DNA of 63,215 bases from contig JAGCUU010000041.1 in NCBI GenBank assembly GCA_017962665.1, positions 1-63,215 on the forward strand, given 5' to 3'. Each line of letters begins with the position of its first letter. The stretch's first letter is position 1. Below the pieces are notes generated by a model that saw nothing but the letters and a program-made list of their open reading frames with translations, was not told the origin of the DNA and searched no databases. Source of the stretch: Bacteroidales bacterium (GTDB lineage: Bacteria; Bacteroidota; Bacteroidia; Bacteroidales; P3). The translations under genes were made by a program, and so were the position numbers. Positions 42,518 to 50,559 of the stretch are shown in pieces.

Positions 42518-42525
42518 TATCTTTG
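42518..42525 (+). promoter_or_regulatory. -7 box of the TIR/CHAT operon
   Basis: TATCTTTG, giving a transcription start near 42532 and a short leader to 42560. No TTG sits at the ideal distance, so it may need an activator or be weak. Confidence 0.55.
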
Positions 42526-42559
42526 CCAACAAAATAAAAACACTACAACTATGCATAAA

Positions 42560-43294
42560 ATGAGTACAATCAAAAAATTATGGATTGCCGGACTCTTTAT
42601 TTCCGCCGCTTTCGCAGCCAATGCACAATTAACACATTTGGAGCAGTCCATCTTCTTGAACTTTAATGCCCCGATGGCTTCATTCAATGATGATGCAGCA
42701 AAGAACGGATTGAACGACTACATTCCAATGACCCGTTTCAATGTCGGAACAAACGCCGCAATAGGCGTAGGTATCGGATATCGTGTATGTTACCGCTTTG
42801 ACGTAGGATTTGGCGAAGTGTCCCCCTACCTCCATGCCGACCTCCAATGGAACCGCATCAAATCCGACACCCGTGACCTATACCTGCAAGCAGGCAACGG
42901 CAGTGCTCCAAACTACTTCAACATTCCCATCTTTGTCGGTGTAAACTACCGCTACCAGCTTACCGACATCTTTACCCCATTTGGTGAGTTCGGATTAGGC
43001 CCTGACTTTATGATTTGCACAAAGGAATCAGGCACTCTTCCATCTGCCGGTGGCAAATTCGAGATGAAATATCGTCCCACTTGTGAGGTTGCCTGGCAGA
43101 TAGGTGCCGGATGCTATTTCGGACAGCATGTAAGCGCAAGTCTGCACTACAATGGTTTTGGAAAACATGCCATTGAATACACAAGTTCCACCACAGTGCC
43201 GGAAGGCACCCTTCAGCTGGCTGACGCGTCAAGCCCGGCCACAAAATCCCGCAACATCGGATTACTATCGCTTCGCATCGGATTCCATTTCTGA
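42560..43294 (+). CDS. Outer-membrane beta-barrel protein
   Basis: A 244-residue barrel with signal peptide MSTIKKLWIAGLFISAAFAANA; this second Met (42560) gives a better signal peptide than 42551. Strands include ARFNVGTNAAIGVGIGYRVCY-like and VNYRYQLTDIFTPFGEFGLG sections, and the terminal strand is IGLLSLRIGFHF. It is about the size of an eight- or ten-stranded barrel of the OmpA/OprF-like type. First gene of the eight-gene unit; the TIR gene follows by 20 bases. It may anchor the system in the outer membrane (inference). Confidence 0.75.
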   Translation: MSTIKKLWIAGLFISAAFAANAQLTHLEQSIFLNFNAPMASFNDDAAKNGLNDYIPMTRFNVGTNAAIGVGIGYRVCYRFDVGFGEVSPYLHADLQWNRIKSDTRDLYLQAGNGSAPNYFNIPIFVGVNYRYQLTDIFTPFGEFGLGPDFMICTKESGTLPSAGGKFEMKYRPTCEVAWQIGAGCYFGQHVSASLHYNGFGKHAIEYTSSTTVPEGTLQLADASSPATKSRNIGLLSLRIGFHF

Positions 43295-43314
43295 TTTAGG
43301 GAAGTGGCGCACTG

Positions 43315-44613
43315 ATGGAACAAAAATACGACATCTTCATCAGCTACCGCAGAGAAGGCGGTGCCCAGTATGCAAGAATATTGCAGCTGATGCTGAAACA
43401 GCGTGGCTACGCTGTTTTCCTGGACTACGATGAGCTAAGGGACGGTACGTTCTCCGAAAAAATCGTCGAAGCCATTAAGGGTTCGCGCATTTTCATGTTA
43501 GTCCTCTCCAAAGGAGCCTTCGACCGTTGTTCAAACGAAGACGACTGGCTACGCATTGAGATAGAGCTGGCTTTAAAGGAGAAGAAAAAGATTATCCCTG
43601 TAGACCCCGACAAATCCTTTGACGGTATTCCCAAAGATGCCCCTGAGTCAATTCAAACCGCTGCAGGTGCCAACCAACATTCGGAGATACATTTCGGACA
43701 GATTCTCGGTGTCACGATTGACTTGATGATAAAGGAGCGCATCGTCCCGGAAATCGGAGACCGCACTCCACAAGGCCAAGTGGATGAGAGCTTTGACCAA
43801 GCCAAGGATTCTCTTAACCGACTGGCCACCCACAACCGCTTTGTGCGTCGTGCTGTGACAATAGTCGCATTTTTCTGTGTACTGGCAGTCCTGGCAACAT
43901 GTTTTTATTTTATCACTCTACAGAGAAAAACTGAAAACAATAAAGATAGAATTGAGCATCTGGTTAAAAACCACAGCCAGATGCATTTAGACATCAGCGA
44001 CGAGGCCACAGAAATGCAACTGGATGCCATAGACGAACTGCTGAAAAGCATGAAACCGCTAATCAATGACTCTATCTGGATTTGTCGCTACGAGATGACT
44101 CAAGGAATTTGGAATGCCGTTCTTGGAGTATCATGCAGCGATGAAGAGCGCCACTACCCCGTGACCAATGTCTCATTCGACGATATCTACGAATTTATTT
44201 TCACTCTGAACTCTCTCACCGGTTTGAATTTCGAACTGCCATCGGCAGAGGAATGGGAGTATGCCGCCAGAGGCGGTGAAAACAACGAGACAACGGCATA
44301 CGCCGGCAGCAATGACATAGATATGGTAGCTTGGTACGGACGCAATTCCGGCGGCACCGTTCACGCCAGCGACGGGAACCAGGGCAAAGGGTGCAACAGT
44401 TTAGATCTTTTTGATATGAGCGGGAATGTCAGCGAGCTCTGCAACACCCCCTTTGACACAGGAGTCGACGGGGGACGCTGGACAGCATGCGGAGGCAACT
44501 ACCTTTCAGAGGCAGAAGATGTCACCGTCGCTTCACGAAGCGGAGTGCCGGACGGAACGAAAGAGTCAACAATAGGATTCCGACTAATACTCCGTCAAAG
44601 CAGACCCCTGTAA
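43315..44613 (+). CDS. TIR-transmembrane-FGE/C-lectin-like protein
   Basis: A 432-residue inner-membrane protein. The cytoplasmic TIR domain (about 4-135) opens with KYDIFISYRREGG; box-like segments are FLDYDELRDG and IFMLVLSKGAF, and Glu82 and Glu84 in WLRIEIELAL occupy the place of the catalytic Glu in TIR NAD hydrolases. A membrane segment spans about 179-203. The periplasmic part holds a FGE-sulfatase/C-type-lectin-like domain (about 255-428: YEMTQGIWNAVL, LPSAEEWEYAARGG, LFDMSGNVSELCN, IGFRLIL). Such domains often bind ligands, so this looks like a transmembrane sensor with an NAD-active or scaffold effector. Enzyme activity is not shown by sequence alone. Confidence 0.85.
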   Translation: MEQKYDIFISYRREGGAQYARILQLMLKQRGYAVFLDYDELRDGTFSEKIVEAIKGSRIFMLVLSKGAFDRCSNEDDWLRIEIELALKEKKKIIPVDPDKSFDGIPKDAPESIQTAAGANQHSEIHFGQILGVTIDLMIKERIVPEIGDRTPQGQVDESFDQAKDSLNRLATHNRFVRRAVTIVAFFCVLAVLATCFYFITLQRKTENNKDRIEHLVKNHSQMHLDISDEATEMQLDAIDELLKSMKPLINDSIWICRYEMTQGIWNAVLGVSCSDEERHYPVTNVSFDDIYEFIFTLNSLTGLNFELPSAEEWEYAARGGENNETTAYAGSNDIDMVAWYGRNSGGTVHASDGNQGKGCNSLDLFDMSGNVSELCNTPFDTGVDGGRWTACGGNYLSEAEDVTVASRSGVPDGTKESTIGFRLILRQSRPL

Positions 44614-44625
44614 TATGCCACACCA

Positions 44626-45279
44626 ATGAAAAGAAAATTATCTTTCGCGCTCCTGTTTATCCTGTTCTGCTCATTAAATGCCCTGAGCCAAAACAATCAG
44701 GACACCGTATTTGAAACCGTTTTCAACGCATGTGTTTCTATGAGAGATGCCGCTGCCACTCACGACACCGCAGCACTGCGACAAGCTGCTGGCATGCTGA
44801 GAAAGTGCAATGTGGCAAAGTTACAACTCCGACCGCTCCAAGAGTATGACGGGACTCTTGATGGCCATCTGCTTTTTGACGAAGACTTTGCCGACAGCCT
44901 GATAGCCGACACTACATTTATGTCGCGTTCCGAATCCTTTGTCAAATCCATAGAGCAAGACCGAAGCCAACGAGGAGGGAGTTCTGCAAAAGCAGTAACT
45001 TGTTTTGCAAAAGCAGAGAAAACATATAAATACAGTTTCCGTGCTTCCGGGCCTCAGAAAATCGCCGTAGTGGCAGAATCCGGAGGTCTTGTAACACTAA
45101 AAGTTCACGTCACAAACCGCGACGGTCTTGATGAAAGATATGACGATCAAGACGACGTATGGAAAGGTCGCCCCTATAGGAGGGTCTCTTTCAACCTGCC
45201 AAACAAGGCAAACACTATTGAATTGGAAATTATCAACTGCAGCAAGAAAGATATTAGTTTTCACATTATCAGCAATTAA
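44626..45279 (+). CDS. Secreted protein with a beta-sandwich end
   Basis: A 217-residue protein with a signal peptide (about 1-21, LNALSQ). The first half is helical and rich in Ala and Arg; the end (about 125-215, YKYSFRASGPQKIAVVAESG and RVSFNLPNKANTIELEI) is a compact beta domain that resembles bacterial pre-peptidase C-terminal domains. I know no named family. It lies 12 bases after the TIR gene and five before the next. It is a candidate ligand or partner of the sensor domain. Confidence 0.6.
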   Translation: MKRKLSFALLFILFCSLNALSQNNQDTVFETVFNACVSMRDAAATHDTAALRQAAGMLRKCNVAKLQLRPLQEYDGTLDGHLLFDEDFADSLIADTTFMSRSESFVKSIEQDRSQRGGSSAKAVTCFAKAEKTYKYSFRASGPQKIAVVAESGGLVTLKVHVTNRDGLDERYDDQDDVWKGRPYRRVSFNLPNKANTIELEIINCSKKDISFHIISN

Positions 45280-45284
45280 CAATA

Positions 45285-45923
45285 TTGAAAAGTATCATCC
45301 TCTTCCTAATCCTGACATTTTGCACACTCCTACCAGTCATCAACGCACAGGAGGTGCAAAAAGAGTTGCGGCAGTATCGTTGGAAACAAATCGACCGCTA
45401 CCACATCTCTACAGGATTTGGAATTGGCGCGAACAAAAATATCACCACCTCCGCACAACTCTCAATAGGTACCGGCAGTTTTCGCAATCTCTTGATTTTT
45501 GACATCGGTATAAGATATGAAAAACTACGAATGTTAAAATCTCCATCTGAGAACATCCGTATCTCCAGAATTCCCCTTTTTGTCTCAGCAGGAATCAACT
45601 TTGTCCGTTGGGACAACGGATGCCTCTATCTTGGAGGAGAAATCAGCGAAACCTTCAATCTACGCGCATTACACCACACTGAATTCAACGATGTTACCAC
45701 TTCCGACATTGAAGCCTCCAAACGACACGCCTCCGTTGAAGGCAAGATGGGATTCCGCATCGACAAATGGGACTGTTGCATCTTCTACTCATACGACATG
45801 GCTCCAGCCTTCAACCAAAAGCACATATATGAAACTGTGGATTATGACTATGAACTGCTTCACGATAATATCTTTGAACGAGACAGAGTAGGCATTCGTA
45901 TTATCTATCATTTCACGCTTTAA
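45285..45923 (+). CDS. Small outer-membrane barrel protein
   Basis: A 212-residue protein read from TTG 45285 (no ATG precedes its signal peptide KSIILFLILTFCTLLPVINA). It has alternating aromatic strands (YHISTGFGIGANKNITTS, FDIGIRYEKLRML, FVSAGINFVRWDNG) and ends in RVGIRIIYHFTL, a barrel terminal strand. Function is unknown. The use of TTG five bases after the previous stop suggests low or coupled translation. Confidence 0.65.
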   Translation: MKSIILFLILTFCTLLPVINAQEVQKELRQYRWKQIDRYHISTGFGIGANKNITTSAQLSIGTGSFRNLLIFDIGIRYEKLRMLKSPSENIRISRIPLFVSAGINFVRWDNGCLYLGGEISETFNLRALHHTEFNDVTTSDIEASKRHASVEGKMGFRIDKWDCCIFYSYDMAPAFNQKHIYETVDYDYELLHDNIFERDRVGIRIIYHFTL

Positions 45924-45957
45924 CCCGGCACAAACCGTTTGTCACCTTGAGAAAAGA

Positions 45958-46824
45958 ATGAAAGCTCACCATATATTTCAATATATCATCATACCGTTAC
46001 TGGCATTCCTGTCTGTATCCTGTGAAGCAGACTTCGACGAGCTGCAAGACACTGACCAAAGGTATATTACATTTCGTTTCGAAACTACTGGACTGCTTGA
46101 CGATGTCTTCACTTTCAACAACGGCTCCGGTGGCTATGGAGCTTCTCTTCCCTGCAATAAGCGTCTGCGTATCAACACCTACTGCTTTGACAAAAACGGC
46201 AAACTTAAGGACCGCACCACACTTTTTGTCAATGAGGGCGACAGTGCTTCAACCACACTGCGCCACCTAATCAAAGATACACCTTATAGGTTTCTCTTCC
46301 TCGCCGATGTCGTCGATTACCAAAACGACGAAACATTCTTTGAACGCTGGTTCCAGATGAAGACCTACGACCTAAGTCTTATGTATCTTGTCTCTTTCGA
46401 CTGGGATGCGGAAGCCTCATGCAACTATGTATGGAGAAACTCTATGCTATGCGAAGTTGAAAACCAGTCGGTCGATATTGTCTTCAGCCCAATTATGTAC
46501 AACGGTTTCATCGTCTACCGCAACATAAAGAATCTTAGCGACCTGGAAGTAAGAGTCGCCCGCTTTATGAAACTGAGTCCAGAACCTTTACGGGGCCTCA
46601 GCAGGGGCAACAAGCCTTTTGAATTCGACACTCCACTACCCGACAGCGTTGTCATCCCCGTGAGCATGCCCATTGTCGACGACACCATAAGGTTCAAGAC
46701 CACGAGATGGCTAACCGCCACTCAAGGTTCACGTGAGCATAACATTCTAAACTACAGCCACAAGCCATTCATCATCCACGTTGACGGTGTAAGCATGAAC
46801 GTGGAGCAAAGCAAATTCTTCTAA
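45958..46824 (+). CDS. FimB/Mfa2-like lipoprotein
   Basis: A 288-residue lipoprotein with signal sequence and lipobox LLAFLSVSC (Cys about 21). The body is beta-rich: YITFRFETTGLLDDVFTF, RLRINTYCFDKNGKLKD, TTLRHLIKDTPYRFLFLADV. This layout resembles FimB/Mfa2-type minor fimbrilin or anchor proteins, which sit at the cell surface, though the similarity is of pattern only. It may display or tether the system at the surface. No other fimbrial gene is present. Confidence 0.55.
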   Translation: MKAHHIFQYIIIPLLAFLSVSCEADFDELQDTDQRYITFRFETTGLLDDVFTFNNGSGGYGASLPCNKRLRINTYCFDKNGKLKDRTTLFVNEGDSASTTLRHLIKDTPYRFLFLADVVDYQNDETFFERWFQMKTYDLSLMYLVSFDWDAEASCNYVWRNSMLCEVENQSVDIVFSPIMYNGFIVYRNIKNLSDLEVRVARFMKLSPEPLRGLSRGNKPFEFDTPLPDSVVIPVSMPIVDDTIRFKTTRWLTATQGSREHNILNYSHKPFIIHVDGVSMNVEQSKFF

Positions 46825-46836
46825 TACAAAGCCAAC

Positions 46837-47568
46837 ATGTTCAGGAACAAAACAATTACACCGACAATAATCCTCGCCATGGCTACTGCTCTCCTGCTTT
46901 CTGCCTGCAAAAAAAAACATAATTTATTCTACTCCGAAGATACTGGGGCCGAGTTCAATCTGTACGACTATTATATTGACAATTATGGCAACGAGGGAAT
47001 TGTTGCATACGCCAGCCCTAATGACAGCAACAAATATTTCATCATCCTTTCACTCGACGAGACAGAGGCACAGTGGGGACCGACAGGAATGCAGGTTTTC
47101 AACGGGTCGTCTCCCGACAATTATACAAGTTCCCGATTCGGACTCGCGATGCTATACTGCATGTATTCCATGGGTATGGAACGCTTCCCCGCCCAGCAGT
47201 GGTGTTTCTCCAAAAACTTAGACGAAGCCTATCCACGTGCCGGAAGCTGGCGACTGCCGACACTTACTGACTGGTGGTATATTAACGGTTTAACCGTTTA
47301 CCCTGACAGCAACATTGCCCGGCTCAACATACACATACAAAACTACGGAGGGACTCCCCTTTCCCCCGAGTCAAATTATTGGTGCTGTGAAGAGGATTAT
47401 GAAGGTTACTCTGAATTTGTGGATTTAGAATCAGATTTCGACCCAGAGAACAGAGCAGTAATAACCACTCCACGATGGACAGCATCAGCAGACAAGGATG
47501 AATGGATAAAGAAAAACAGTCATAAAGTACGAGCAATAAAGTATATATTCAGGAAATTCGAGGAATGA
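46837..47568 (+). CDS. Lipoprotein with a FGE/DUF1566-like domain
   Basis: A 243-residue lipoprotein (lipobox LLLSAC, Cys about 23). The core (about 55-170) reads like a DUF1566/FGE-type C-lectin-like fold: WGPTGMQVF, AQQWCFSKN and GSWRLPTLTDWWYINGL, and a late SNYWCCEEDYEG. The RLPT-x-x-x-W segment is common to that group. It may bind the same ligand as the TIR protein's outer domain. The next gene overlaps its stop by four bases (ATGA). Confidence 0.6.
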   Translation: MFRNKTITPTIILAMATALLLSACKKKHNLFYSEDTGAEFNLYDYYIDNYGNEGIVAYASPNDSNKYFIILSLDETEAQWGPTGMQVFNGSSPDNYTSSRFGLAMLYCMYSMGMERFPAQQWCFSKNLDEAYPRAGSWRLPTLTDWWYINGLTVYPDSNIARLNIHIQNYGGTPLSPESNYWCCEEDYEGYSEFVDLESDFDPENRAVITTPRWTASADKDEWIKKNSHKVRAIKYIFRKFEE

Positions 47569-48260
47569 GAAAAACCGTTGCCATATTACTGTTGTTGTTT
47601 ATGTCGCTGACCGCCGCCGGCCAGCATGCTATAGACACTTTGCAACCAATAAGGCAACGCATGCCATTCCGAAACGCCACAGACTTGTTGTTCTATTTTG
47701 GAGGAGGAAGATTTCAGGCAGAGGACCTCAACATTTATGGTTCAGCAACGAACAACGGATTTACCGACAAAGAGGAAATGCCATATTATATCACCATACT
47801 CGACATAGGTCTCGCAAAAGCCGAGTACAACGACAAGATAATGCAGCTTACATATTGTCTTGGCTACAAATACTACAACATCGCTCTCAAGCAGGATTTG
47901 GGTACAGGAATGGGCGTTAACACCCATTGGCTTTCATTAGAGGTCAACTTTGATATGTTTTTTAATATAGGACTACGAGCCGATTTCCTGCTCTTTTGCA
48001 ACACACGCACAAGCAACAGCTGGAGCTACGAAAGCATCCACAAAGGATGTTTCAACGAATCATCCTATGGAATCTATTTCGGAATGAAGTTTTTTTTGCC
48101 GAATATCATTATCGAGCCGCGATTTGGCAGCTCATTTAAACCAATGATAAACATCGATAAATACCATTACTACAATGGAACAAAATACGCAAAATATGAG
48201 ATCTATTTTGAATTAAGAATGAGTGTCCGTCTTTTTACAACTGGGAAGATACTGAATTAA
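47565..48260 (+). CDS. Outer-membrane barrel protein
   Basis: A 231-residue barrel with a signal peptide (MRKTVAILLLLFMSLTAAGQ). Strands such as TDLLFYFGGGRFQAEDL, MQLTYCLGYKYYN, IGLRADFLLFCN and a terminal FELRMSVRLFTTGKILN support an outer-membrane fold. It is the third barrel of the operon, translationally coupled to the lipoprotein by a four-base overlap. Function is unknown. Confidence 0.65.
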   Translation: MRKTVAILLLLFMSLTAAGQHAIDTLQPIRQRMPFRNATDLLFYFGGGRFQAEDLNIYGSATNNGFTDKEEMPYYITILDIGLAKAEYNDKIMQLTYCLGYKYYNIALKQDLGTGMGVNTHWLSLEVNFDMFFNIGLRADFLLFCNTRTSNSWSYESIHKGCFNESSYGIYFGMKFFLPNIIIEPRFGSSFKPMINIDKYHYYNGTKYAKYEIYFELRMSVRLFTTGKILN

Positions 48261-48267
48261 TGGCGTG

Positions 48268-50559
48268 ATGAAAACAAAAGCATTGATATTACTATTGTTA
48301 TTAGCTCCTTTTGCCCTACATGGACAGAATGGCGACACCAAACTGCCACGACTGATAGAGGAGTATTACCGGCAGCCACTCAATCTTGACCAAGACTACG
48401 ACTACCAAGCCCAAGTTATTAATGAGTGGAAATCCCGTGGAATCAGGAGATTCTTCGATAATTTTTTTCTATCATTCCTCCCTGACAAAACAGGCAAAAA
48501 CAACTATATACCAATTGATTCATCCTATTTTTCACAACTCAACCAACTCATCAAAAAATACAACAAAATATATGGTTCACAGAGTAAAGAATATGCTGAA
48601 TCCGTCTTGTATTTTGCAATGATATGCTGCGATTACAAAGACTATGTGCAGGCAGAAAGGTTCCTTGACAGAGGTGTGTTTCTACTGAAACAAAACGGTG
48701 ACGGTCCTTTTCAAGGCAGGGACACCATTTCCGAGATATTCATGCTCGACGTCAAAAGCAAGATAGAGTATGCCACCGACAGCCTGTTCTTTGCCCTTAA
48801 GAGACACAAACGGGCATGTAAACTCAAAAAGCAATATTTTGGTGATCAAAGTGTGCCTTACTTGGGCAGTGTGCTTGGACTCTCCAGGCTTTATGGGGAG
48901 AGAATGAGATATGGCAAGTCAGTACAGACCCACAACGAGGGCTTCCAATCATACGTCCAACTGCTGAAACACGAATTCTGCCAGCAGACCGAGTCGGAAC
49001 GAAGCAACTACTGGCAGACGGCACGCCCATATATCAGCCGTACCCTTGATGTCGCCTACCAAACCTCGCACAGCCGCATGCGCCGAAGCGTGAAAGGTAT
49101 GGCAAACGCCACATACGATGCCCTGCTCCTCTCAAAAGGTATACTGCTCAACACCACCCGTAGCTTTGAGGATTACGTTTTATCGTCAGGCAATGAAGCC
49201 GCCATCATGCTTCTTGAAGAGAAAAAGAACATTTCAAATAAAAATGCCGACGCCATACTCCTCGACTCAATCGACAGGGTGATTCTCAACATGCTCGCTG
49301 AAAACAACAAGAGCTATACCATTCCCCATCTTTCAATAACATGGCGAGATGTGCAGGAACAGCTTCATCCTGATGACGTGGCGATAGAGTTTTTTTGTGA
49401 CAGTCGCCACAACTACGGTGCCGTCATCATACGTCGCGACTGGAAATCACCGATACTTGTTCCATTGAAAAACAGAACCAACGGCAACTCTCTCGACAAT
49501 CTTCTTAAATCATCCACCTCAGACAACGGACAAACAGCAAATCTGGAAGAGCTATGGACGCTCAGCAAAGCCATCTGGACAGACGAACTACTTAAACATT
49601 TCCCCAAAACAGACACGGGACATGTTTATTTCTCCACAGATGGCGAATTACAAGTAATAGGGATAGAGAACCTACCGTTTGTATCTCCAAAGCGACAAGG
49701 AAACGACAGCGTACTACACTACACTTTTGCAGACATTTATCCAATGTATCGACTCTCATCCACCAGAGAGCTGGTCACTGCTAAAAGAAGCAGACAAATG
49801 AATAAAGCCGCCATCTATGGAGGTTTGATTTATGATATGGATCTCGGTGCCGAAAGCTGTTCAGTTCCGAACACAAATATACGTTCAAACCGAGAAGCGC
49901 TACATTCTATACCCTATCTGGCAGGAACAAAAAAAGAGGCTGACGACATCATTGCCATACTCCAAAAAGACAGGCAGACACAGATCTCTCCTTTCACCAG
50001 CACGAATGGAACAGAGGAGTCGCTGAAACAACTTGGCGGACAAAAGTACAACCTGCTACATATCGCCACACACGGCTTTGCCTATAGTGCTTCCGATTCC
50101 GCCATAATCAGCCGCCTGCAACTTGGAAGCAACGCATTGTCCCACACAGGACTGTTGATGGCCGGAGCAGACAGCAAATGGTTTGGCGACTACATTCCTG
50201 AAGGCAAAGACGACGGATTTGTGACGTCGCTTGAAATATCCTCCATAGACTTCAACGAAATGGACCTTGTGGTGCTTAGCGCCTGCGAGACAGGGAAAGG
50301 AATGATTGCCGATGACGGCGTCTTCGGACTGCAGCGCGGATTCAAGATGGCCGGTGTCAACAGCATTCTTATGTCGCTGTGGAAAGTTGACGACGATGCA
50401 ACATGCACGCTAATGACTGAGTTCTATAGAAACTGGACATCAGGCATGGAGAAGCACGACGCACTTGAGAGAGCAAAACAGACTGTCCGAAACACTCCCA
50501 AATGGAAAGATCCTAAATACTGGGCGGCGTTTATACTGCTTGATGCTATTGACAAATAG
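48268..50559 (+). CDS. Secreted CHAT-domain (caspase-like) protease
   Basis: A 763-residue protein with signal peptide MKTKALILLLLLAPFALHG, TPR-like helices at about 90-330 (YAESVLYFAMICCDYKDYVQ, AERFLDRGVFLL), a linker and a CHAT peptidase from about 460. The catalytic pair is His602 in HIATHG and Cys673 in LSACETGKG, the standard separase/caspase arrangement. ATG 48268 is used; a GTG one codon earlier is less likely. A periplasmic CHAT protease is unusual, as known prokaryotic ones (such as Craspase TPR-CHAT) act in the cytoplasm. It ends the operon. Its target could be a neighbouring lipoprotein or secreted protein. Confidence 0.85.
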   Translation: MKTKALILLLLLAPFALHGQNGDTKLPRLIEEYYRQPLNLDQDYDYQAQVINEWKSRGIRRFFDNFFLSFLPDKTGKNNYIPIDSSYFSQLNQLIKKYNKIYGSQSKEYAESVLYFAMICCDYKDYVQAERFLDRGVFLLKQNGDGPFQGRDTISEIFMLDVKSKIEYATDSLFFALKRHKRACKLKKQYFGDQSVPYLGSVLGLSRLYGERMRYGKSVQTHNEGFQSYVQLLKHEFCQQTESERSNYWQTARPYISRTLDVAYQTSHSRMRRSVKGMANATYDALLLSKGILLNTTRSFEDYVLSSGNEAAIMLLEEKKNISNKNADAILLDSIDRVILNMLAENNKSYTIPHLSITWRDVQEQLHPDDVAIEFFCDSRHNYGAVIIRRDWKSPILVPLKNRTNGNSLDNLLKSSTSDNGQTANLEELWTLSKAIWTDELLKHFPKTDTGHVYFSTDGELQVIGIENLPFVSPKRQGNDSVLHYTFADIYPMYRLSSTRELVTAKRSRQMNKAAIYGGLIYDMDLGAESCSVPNTNIRSNREALHSIPYLAGTKKEADDIIAILQKDRQTQISPFTSTNGTEESLKQLGGQKYNLLHIATHGFAYSASDSAIISRLQLGSNALSHTGLLMAGADSKWFGDYIPEGKDDGFVTSLEISSIDFNEMDLVVLSACETGKGMIADDGVFGLQRGFKMAGVNSILMSLWKVDDDATCTLMTEFYRNWTSGMEKHDALERAKQTVRNTPKWKDPKYWAAFILLDAIDK

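Follow-up and report, generated by a model that had tools for sequence, protein, structure and literature searches.

The TIR and CHAT effectors of bacterial immunity have, to our knowledge, mostly been described as intracellular proteins. A run of genes from a Bacteroidales bacterium (GenBank assembly GCA_017962665.1, contig JAGCUU010000041.1) raises the question whether such effectors could also serve a system that spans the cell envelope. The window analyzed here is this entire contig of 63,215 nucleotides (C23), which belongs to a genome (G000) of 1.88 Mb and 77% completeness. Eight plus-strand genes, w37 to w44, are separated by gaps of 20, 12, 5, 34, 12, -4 and 4 bases, the -4 gap between w42 and w43 being an ATGA overlap. 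This layout, with gaps of at most 34 bases, had been described in an original prediction made from the sequence and is confirmed by the coordinates. The true cassette comprises the seven genes w38 to w44 (43315–50559, plus strand), coding for a protein with a TIR domain, a transmembrane (TM) segment and an FGE domain (TIR-FGE), the 217-aa protein w39, a putative barrel, two lipoproteins, a second putative barrel and a CHAT protease. Judged from their spacing, w38 to w44 are likely co-transcribed. It is possible, somewhat short of an even chance, that they form a variable chromosomal cassette for a two-compartment, envelope-spanning conflict (suicide) system. A membrane-anchored, SARM1-like TIR tied by w39 to an apparently exported CHAT would extend suicide immunity to envelope sensing, and TIR-FGE, w39 and CHAT are offered here as a defined three-gene core for testing.

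Linkage of TIR-FGE, w39 and CHAT across genomes

Relatives of the cassette proteins were collected by several searches. Within the family, w38 gave nearly full-length single matches in at least 3 of 190 genomes (the window, G103 and G063), and in G026 and G184 the TIR and FGE parts are matched separately within one frame. Relatives of CHAT were present in 24 of the 190 family genomes and w42 in 3 of 189. Scanning a collection of 84,980 species with w42 returned three loci, RUG10805 (taken as G088), Horse_feces131 (taken as G063) and RGIG8190 (G578, from water buffalo rumen). With the w39 profile, matches came from 3 of 393 genomes of the order, two of them from other families (G361 and G499), and 3 of 189 genomes of the family, the window genome being counted in each; in a sample of 326 genomes of the phylum the only match was the window itself. 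Altogether six w39 loci were obtained (G000, G103, G063, G578, G361 and G499), which represent at least three families, the family of G578 not being given. Around the matches we fetched stretches of about 9–20 kb each, some ending at contig ends, and called genes crudely as longest open frames.

All six w39 loci contain a TIR-TM-FGE gene and a CHAT gene on the same strand as w39. TIR-FGE is directly adjacent to w39 in five of them, and in G103 one CHAT gene lies between the two. Five of the loci (all but the window) turned up in searches with w39 or w42, in which TIR and CHAT played no part, and G578, G361 and G499 were first found in this way. The gene order is CHAT, TIR-FGE, w39 and CHAT in G361; TIR-FGE, w39, CHAT and a second TIR in G499; and TIR-FGE, CHAT, w39, a tetratricopeptide repeat (TPR) gene and CHAT in G103. 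In G063 we found CHAT, TIR-FGE, w39, a 447-aa gene, w40 to w43, a small protein and CHAT. In G578, TIR-FGE, w39, w40, w41, w42, w43, a small protein and CHAT are followed by w42', w43', a small protein and CHAT', the last four having been duplicated as one unit. The original prediction had joined TIR and CHAT in one system, and co-occurrence of the two genes had been set beforehand as the check; its outcome, both genes in six of six w39 loci, upholds that proposal.

As a comparison we considered stretches lacking a clear w39, using one profile per part. No cassette-type TIR was found in any of 26 CHAT stretches, which came from those 24 genomes of the family that matched CHAT, in some cases several per genome. 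Likewise, none of six TIR stretches, chosen from strong TIR matches among the matches listed, contained a CHAT. Identity matrices of TIR-FGE and w39 correlate with a Spearman coefficient of 0.66, a value reached by 9 of the 720 exact permutations. This suggests that the two proteins diverge together, six related loci being modest evidence.

The TIR-TM-FGE protein

We examined w38 (43315–44613, plus strand) as the possible effector. Its Pfam matches are TIR_2 (E 7.9e-13) and FGE-sulfatase (PF03781, E 6.8e-19, profile positions 85–254 of 255) within one protein, and a hydrophobic segment between them (residues 182–200 in the window protein) is found in all six orthologues, in agreement with the TIR-TM-FGE architecture first proposed. 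The copy of G578 has an extra, marginal hydrophobic segment at 53–71, within the TIR domain. Among solved structures, the TIR domain is nearest to human SARM1 (E 1.1e-20). Residue E82 aligns to the glutamate in the SARM1 motif DWVHKEI, which we take to be the catalytic Glu642, and is invariant in all six orthologues; the TIR domain is thus a putative NADase. Because w38 appears by eye to have no signal peptide, a location of the TIR on the cytosolic side is favored, which would place the FGE domain in the periplasm as a putative sensor.

PDB neighbors of the FGE part include SUMF2 and TvpA, a variable protein presumably linked to a diversity-generating retroelement (DGR). In the four closest copies of w38 (window, G103, G578 and G361) the TIR domains share 65–75% identity and the FGE domains 38–47%, suggesting that the effector is kept as the sensor changes; the copies of G063 and G499 have a more distant TIR. 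FGE/SUMF1 enzymes have an active-site cysteine pair; in the alignment of six sequences, judged by eye, the GG motif is not followed by a conserved cysteine. The idea that a DGR diversifies the FGE domain was considered and set aside, since no DGR was found in the 77% complete genome and the surroundings of its single reverse transcriptase match, on another contig, contain no match to the FGE gene. This reverse transcriptase (L100 5762–6877, contig C18 of G000) looks retron-like rather than DGR-like by eye and lies beside a gene that by eye resembles KaiC/DnaB.

The w39 family and the CHAT protease

The gene directly behind w38, w39 (44626–45279, plus strand), would mark the TIR-CHAT pair as an undescribed core family. 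Pfam gave no convincing match for the six members, and for w39, w41 and w42 sequence searches of the PDB returned nothing convincing; as a guess, the C-terminal half of w39 may be beta-rich and w41 fimbrial-like. The last gene of the cassette, w44 (48265–50559, plus strand, starting with GTG at 48265 or ATG at 48268), codes for a caspase-like CHAT protease. The CHAT domain is matched with E 2.8e-50 in Pfam, and the His-Cys pair H603 and C674 is invariant in five of five aligned proteins, so that the protease first proposed from the sequence is borne out. TPRs are predicted in several CHAT relatives.

Both w39 and w44 have an N terminus that resembles a signal peptide. Export was judged by eye, with a simple hydropathy threshold applied in place of a signal-peptide predictor. 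One of the six w39 proteins and four of the five aligned CHAT proteins pass this threshold; neither window copy does, and the earlier description of w39 and w44 as secreted was not confirmed for the window proteins.

A tree built from 40 CHAT domains joins w44 to both copies of the G578 cassette (support 100/97). In this tree w44 falls within a set of seven rows (95/97) that also holds the cassette copy of G063 and CHATs of G000 contig C27, G103 and G116, and the CHAT of G088 lies just outside this set. The TIR-adjacent CHATs of G063, G361 and G499 cluster on their own (99/97), and that of G103 is part of the w44 set. Two CHAT types thus appear to serve the w39 loci.

In G088 the small protein that adjoins CHAT in G063 and G578 forms an N-terminal part of CHAT itself (L071 9097–11697, E 5e-17 in a five-sequence search). 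The same search hints at such a fusion in the window copy (E 4e-4).

The barrel and lipoprotein block w40 to w43

Between w39 and the protease lie four genes that may act at the outer membrane. The first, w40 (45285–45923, plus strand, TTG start), has a hydrophobic N-terminal segment at residues 3–21 and codes for a putative small outer-membrane barrel; w43 (47565–48260, plus strand), also with a hydrophobic N terminus, is a putative barrel with one weak match (OMP_b-brl_2, E 0.026). The three barrels of the original prediction fared unequally: w43 and the resident w37 (see below) have some similarity to barrel families, and w40 has no support from a Pfam family. No Pfam match was obtained for the window proteins w39, w40 and w41.

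The two lipoproteins had been predicted correctly, the lipobox cysteines aligning in both families. For w41 (45958–46824, plus strand) the cysteine is aligned in four of four copies, and it is followed by an acidic stretch, C-EADFDE in the window and C-QDDFDE in G063, the copies of G088 and G578 being less acidic. Since this stretch resembles the Bacteroidetes surface-export signal as an excerpt of PMC5080379 presents it (polar or positive, then acidic residues past the cysteine, for example SDDFE), surface exposure of w41 is plausible. In w42 (46837–47568, plus strand) Cys24 is invariant in five of five copies, one of the G578 copies having an atypical lipobox. Two of these five members resemble Lcl_C (PF07603) in Pfam, the better match having E 1.7e-4, as do two of three weak w42 matches from outside the window genome that were run against Pfam out of six. 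The DUF1566-like nature ascribed earlier to w42 thus holds as a distant relation of the family, the window copy not being among the matching members.

Orthologues of w40 to w43 are found in the same order in G063, G088 and G578. In all four genomes the block is followed by CHAT, and in the three other than the window this CHAT is 44–48% identical to w44 and comes directly or after one small gene. The block is accessory, being present in three of the six w39 loci and in addition in G088, where w40 to w43 and CHAT occur with no TIR and no w39.

Insertion site and extent of the cassette

To define the borders of the cassette we considered its surroundings in relatives. The gene downstream, w45, was searched in 119 genomes of the genus, of which 110 matched, and 16 of these places were fetched. 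In 8 of the 16 stretches w37 adjoins the divergent porin gene w36, and a best hit to any of w38 to w44 was found in none of the 16. The gene w37 (42551–43294, plus strand) is outer-membrane barrel-like (OMP_b-brl, E 6.6e-5, under the curated cut-off). It is preceded by the promoter-like box TAnnTTTGC at 42518–42526 on the plus strand, present as had been predicted; the window's plus strand contains the motif TAnnTTTG[CT] 12 times. This box is retained in seven of the eight relatives with w36-w37, where no cassette lies behind it; the eighth could not be judged, its start being called too far upstream. Because w37 stands beside w36 in relatives without w38 to w44, the cassette consists of seven genes, and the single eight-gene unit of the original prediction was discarded, w37 and its box belonging to the resident locus.

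The start of w38 lies 20 bases past the stop codon of w37. The cassette therefore sits behind a resident gene, whose promoter it may borrow by read-through. Counts of internal sigma-70-type promoters (16 against 13.6 expected) and terminators (8 against 8.9) are not above chance, the sigma-70 model not covering Bacteroidota promoters. In G026, w37 is located on the opposite side of w34-w36 from w45, a block order unlike that of the window, which has w45 behind the cassette.

We infer horizontal spread of the cassette. Carriage by phages or plasmids was dropped as an explanation, since w39 has no match in plasmids, phages or viral contigs and w42 none in viral contigs. The only Rfam and tRNA matches in the window are at 62.2–62.8 kb, with none at the cassette ends.

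A possible envelope-spanning conflict system

How could these parts work together? In the mechanism that we consider, the core would be a membrane-anchored TIR-FGE receptor with w39 as exported partner and an exported CHAT protease, and w40 to w43 would form an outer-membrane or surface sensing block coupled to CHAT. An envelope disturbance, such as phage adsorption, contact attack or damage, would be read by w40 to w43 and activate CHAT. Once active, the protease would have w39 or the FGE domain as its likeliest target in the periplasm; the cytosolic TIR domains would then cluster and destroy NAD+ and the cell would stop. Sensing at the surface, a signal to the TIR and defence against phages are all plausible, and the signal might run from protease to TIR, from TIR to protease or along two parallel arms. 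That the cassette represents a new class of trans-envelope immunity, in which surface lipoproteins and barrels detect an attack, the periplasmic protease relays it via w39 and the FGE ectodomain, and the TIR across the inner membrane depletes NAD+, we regard as unlikely; if true, such a system would be a bacterial counterpart to transmembrane death receptors.

Several observations weigh against the conflict system as outlined. Its support is wholly computational, and export of w39 and CHAT rests on judgement by eye. The charges on either side of the TM segment of w38 leave its topology undecided. Each part can stand alone: TIR-FGE genes without nearby CHAT or w39 exist (L078 and L080), as do CHATs without TIR, and in G088, where the block w40 to w43 occurs with CHAT in the absence of TIR and w39, CHAT must have another output. 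In one of the 26 CHAT stretches (G114) CHAT is immediately preceded by a gene weakly similar to w39 (E 6e-7) and TIR is absent, which hints that w39 partners CHAT and speaks against a strict triad. As regards mobility, the G+C content of the eight genes (45.9%) shows no compositional shift from the window (47.1%), no convincing end repeats were found at the cassette boundaries, no w39 match came from plasmids, phages or viral contigs, and the flanks are ordinary chromosomal genes (by eye, except for w36 and w45, which were named by Pfam). PADLOC gave only general TIR-effector models, and assignment to a known defence model was rejected.

The independence of the parts and the split of the CHAT tree, which is its main support, would suit an arrangement of two parallel arms. 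TIR-FGE would then sense periplasmic ligands alone, CHAT and the outer-membrane block would be a separate periplasmic protease system, and both would be co-located as a defence or stress repertoire. We consider this rather unlikely, as w39 ties TIR and CHAT in all six loci and TIR is near none of the 26 CHAT stretches without a clear w39; moreover the CHAT split is not strict, the TIR-adjacent CHAT of G103 sitting in the w44 set. Alternatively, the cassette might serve envelope homeostasis or stress signalling instead of immunity, with lipoproteins and barrels reporting damage, CHAT processing periplasmic proteins and the TIR acting as a scaffold or signal without killing. Regulatory-looking neighbors would be in line with this, namely an MscS-type channel gene (G578, with a homologue in G063) and, at other CHAT loci of the family, a caspase gene with a weak sigma-70-like gene. 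However, the patchy distribution of w39 (three genomes each among 189 of the family and 393 of the order), the site behind an unrelated gene and the retained SARM1-like glutamate fit a conflict system better, which makes a homeostatic role quite improbable. Contact or self-recognition, in which surface lipoproteins detect neighboring cells and TIR and CHAT stop the carrier after contact with non-self, could draw on the export-signal-like stretch of w41 and on the lower conservation of FGE compared to TIR. It appears very improbable, since no exported toxin or immunity gene was recognised in the cassette and both effectors appear aimed at the carrier.

Comparison with known systems

The conflict system suggested by w38 to w44 was compared to described systems that share one of its parts. 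Thoeris and TIR-SAVED use bacterial TIR NADases as immune effectors, and with these and with SARM1 the cassette has in common a TIR with the catalytic glutamate position. In contrast to them, its TIR is joined via the TM segment to FGE, and no SAVED or ThsA/ThsB partner was recognised; in PADLOC the eight proteins resembled ThsB at most weakly (best E 0.0056) and matched no ThsA model. The CHAT domain with its His-Cys pair, and the TPRs of several relatives, are shared with the TPR-CHAT protease of Craspase and other bacterial CHAT proteases. Here, however, the signal-peptide-like N terminus of w44 puts the protease probably outside the cytosol, and no CRISPR effector or gasdermin was recognised alongside. 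For gRAMP/Cas7-11, the Craspase partner, no Pfam match was found in the eight window genes; the neighbors were compared with each other and only some of them against Pfam. Surface lipoprotein operons, Sus-like or fimbrial, occur in Bacteroidota, and lipoproteins beside barrels and the acidic stretch of w41 recall them, with no SusC/SusD or fimbrillin family match to w40-w43 in Pfam.

Excerpts of PMC7159879, PMC8195603 and PMC10907252 describe FGE/C-lectin sensors with TIR and caspase-like effectors in NTPase-centered and DGR conflict systems. They include a DGR target from Thiohalocapsa that unites CHAT and TIR in a single protein; some DGR targets of that paper also have TM domains. Compared to the VMAP/vWA-MoxR, STAND and DGR systems as these excerpts present them, the cassette lacks an NTPase, MoxR and a DGR, and its TIR-FGE and apparently exported CHAT are separate genes acting, as we suppose, across the envelope. 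A MoxR ATPase or vWA core gene was not matched in the eight genes. The surroundings of the G499 and G116 loci contain genes that look vWA-like by eye. Literature searches revealed no published account of the TIR-w39-CHAT layout among the matches listed. We place the cassette with the bacterial TIR/CHAT conflict systems, in a layout that is probably undescribed.

Neighboring genes at related loci

Some further genes recur near the related loci. Upstream of TIR-FGE in G578 lies the MscS-type channel gene (L088 148–1236), its homologue being upstream in G063 (L067 9473–10636). Near the w39 locus of G499, a protein combining transglutaminase, protein kinase and (weakly) TIR is encoded (L124 9828–12551), with a homologue near the G103 locus (L065 12281–15223, E 3.9e-205). 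A second recurring module consists of a gene of about 490–510 aa without Pfam match, a gene with a weak trypsin-like match, one with a weak protein-kinase C-lobe match and a CHAT gene. It is found on the same strand after the TIR-CHAT cassette of RGIG8190 (L088 14078–20212) and on contig C27 of G000 (L068 10126–16248), separate from the window contig. Next to a CHAT gene, contig C27 also codes, close to its end, for a protein with 14 WD40 stretches; M48-TerB and C39-RyR proteins are encoded there as well (L069 12025–14394, L068 5744–8399). Another CHAT locus of the family (L101, L102, L105, L107, L108, L109, L110 and L113) comprises a caspase-type gene, a weak sigma-70-like gene (E 1.7e-4), a gene of 219–223 aa and CHAT, the genes being named by Pfam in L102 only.

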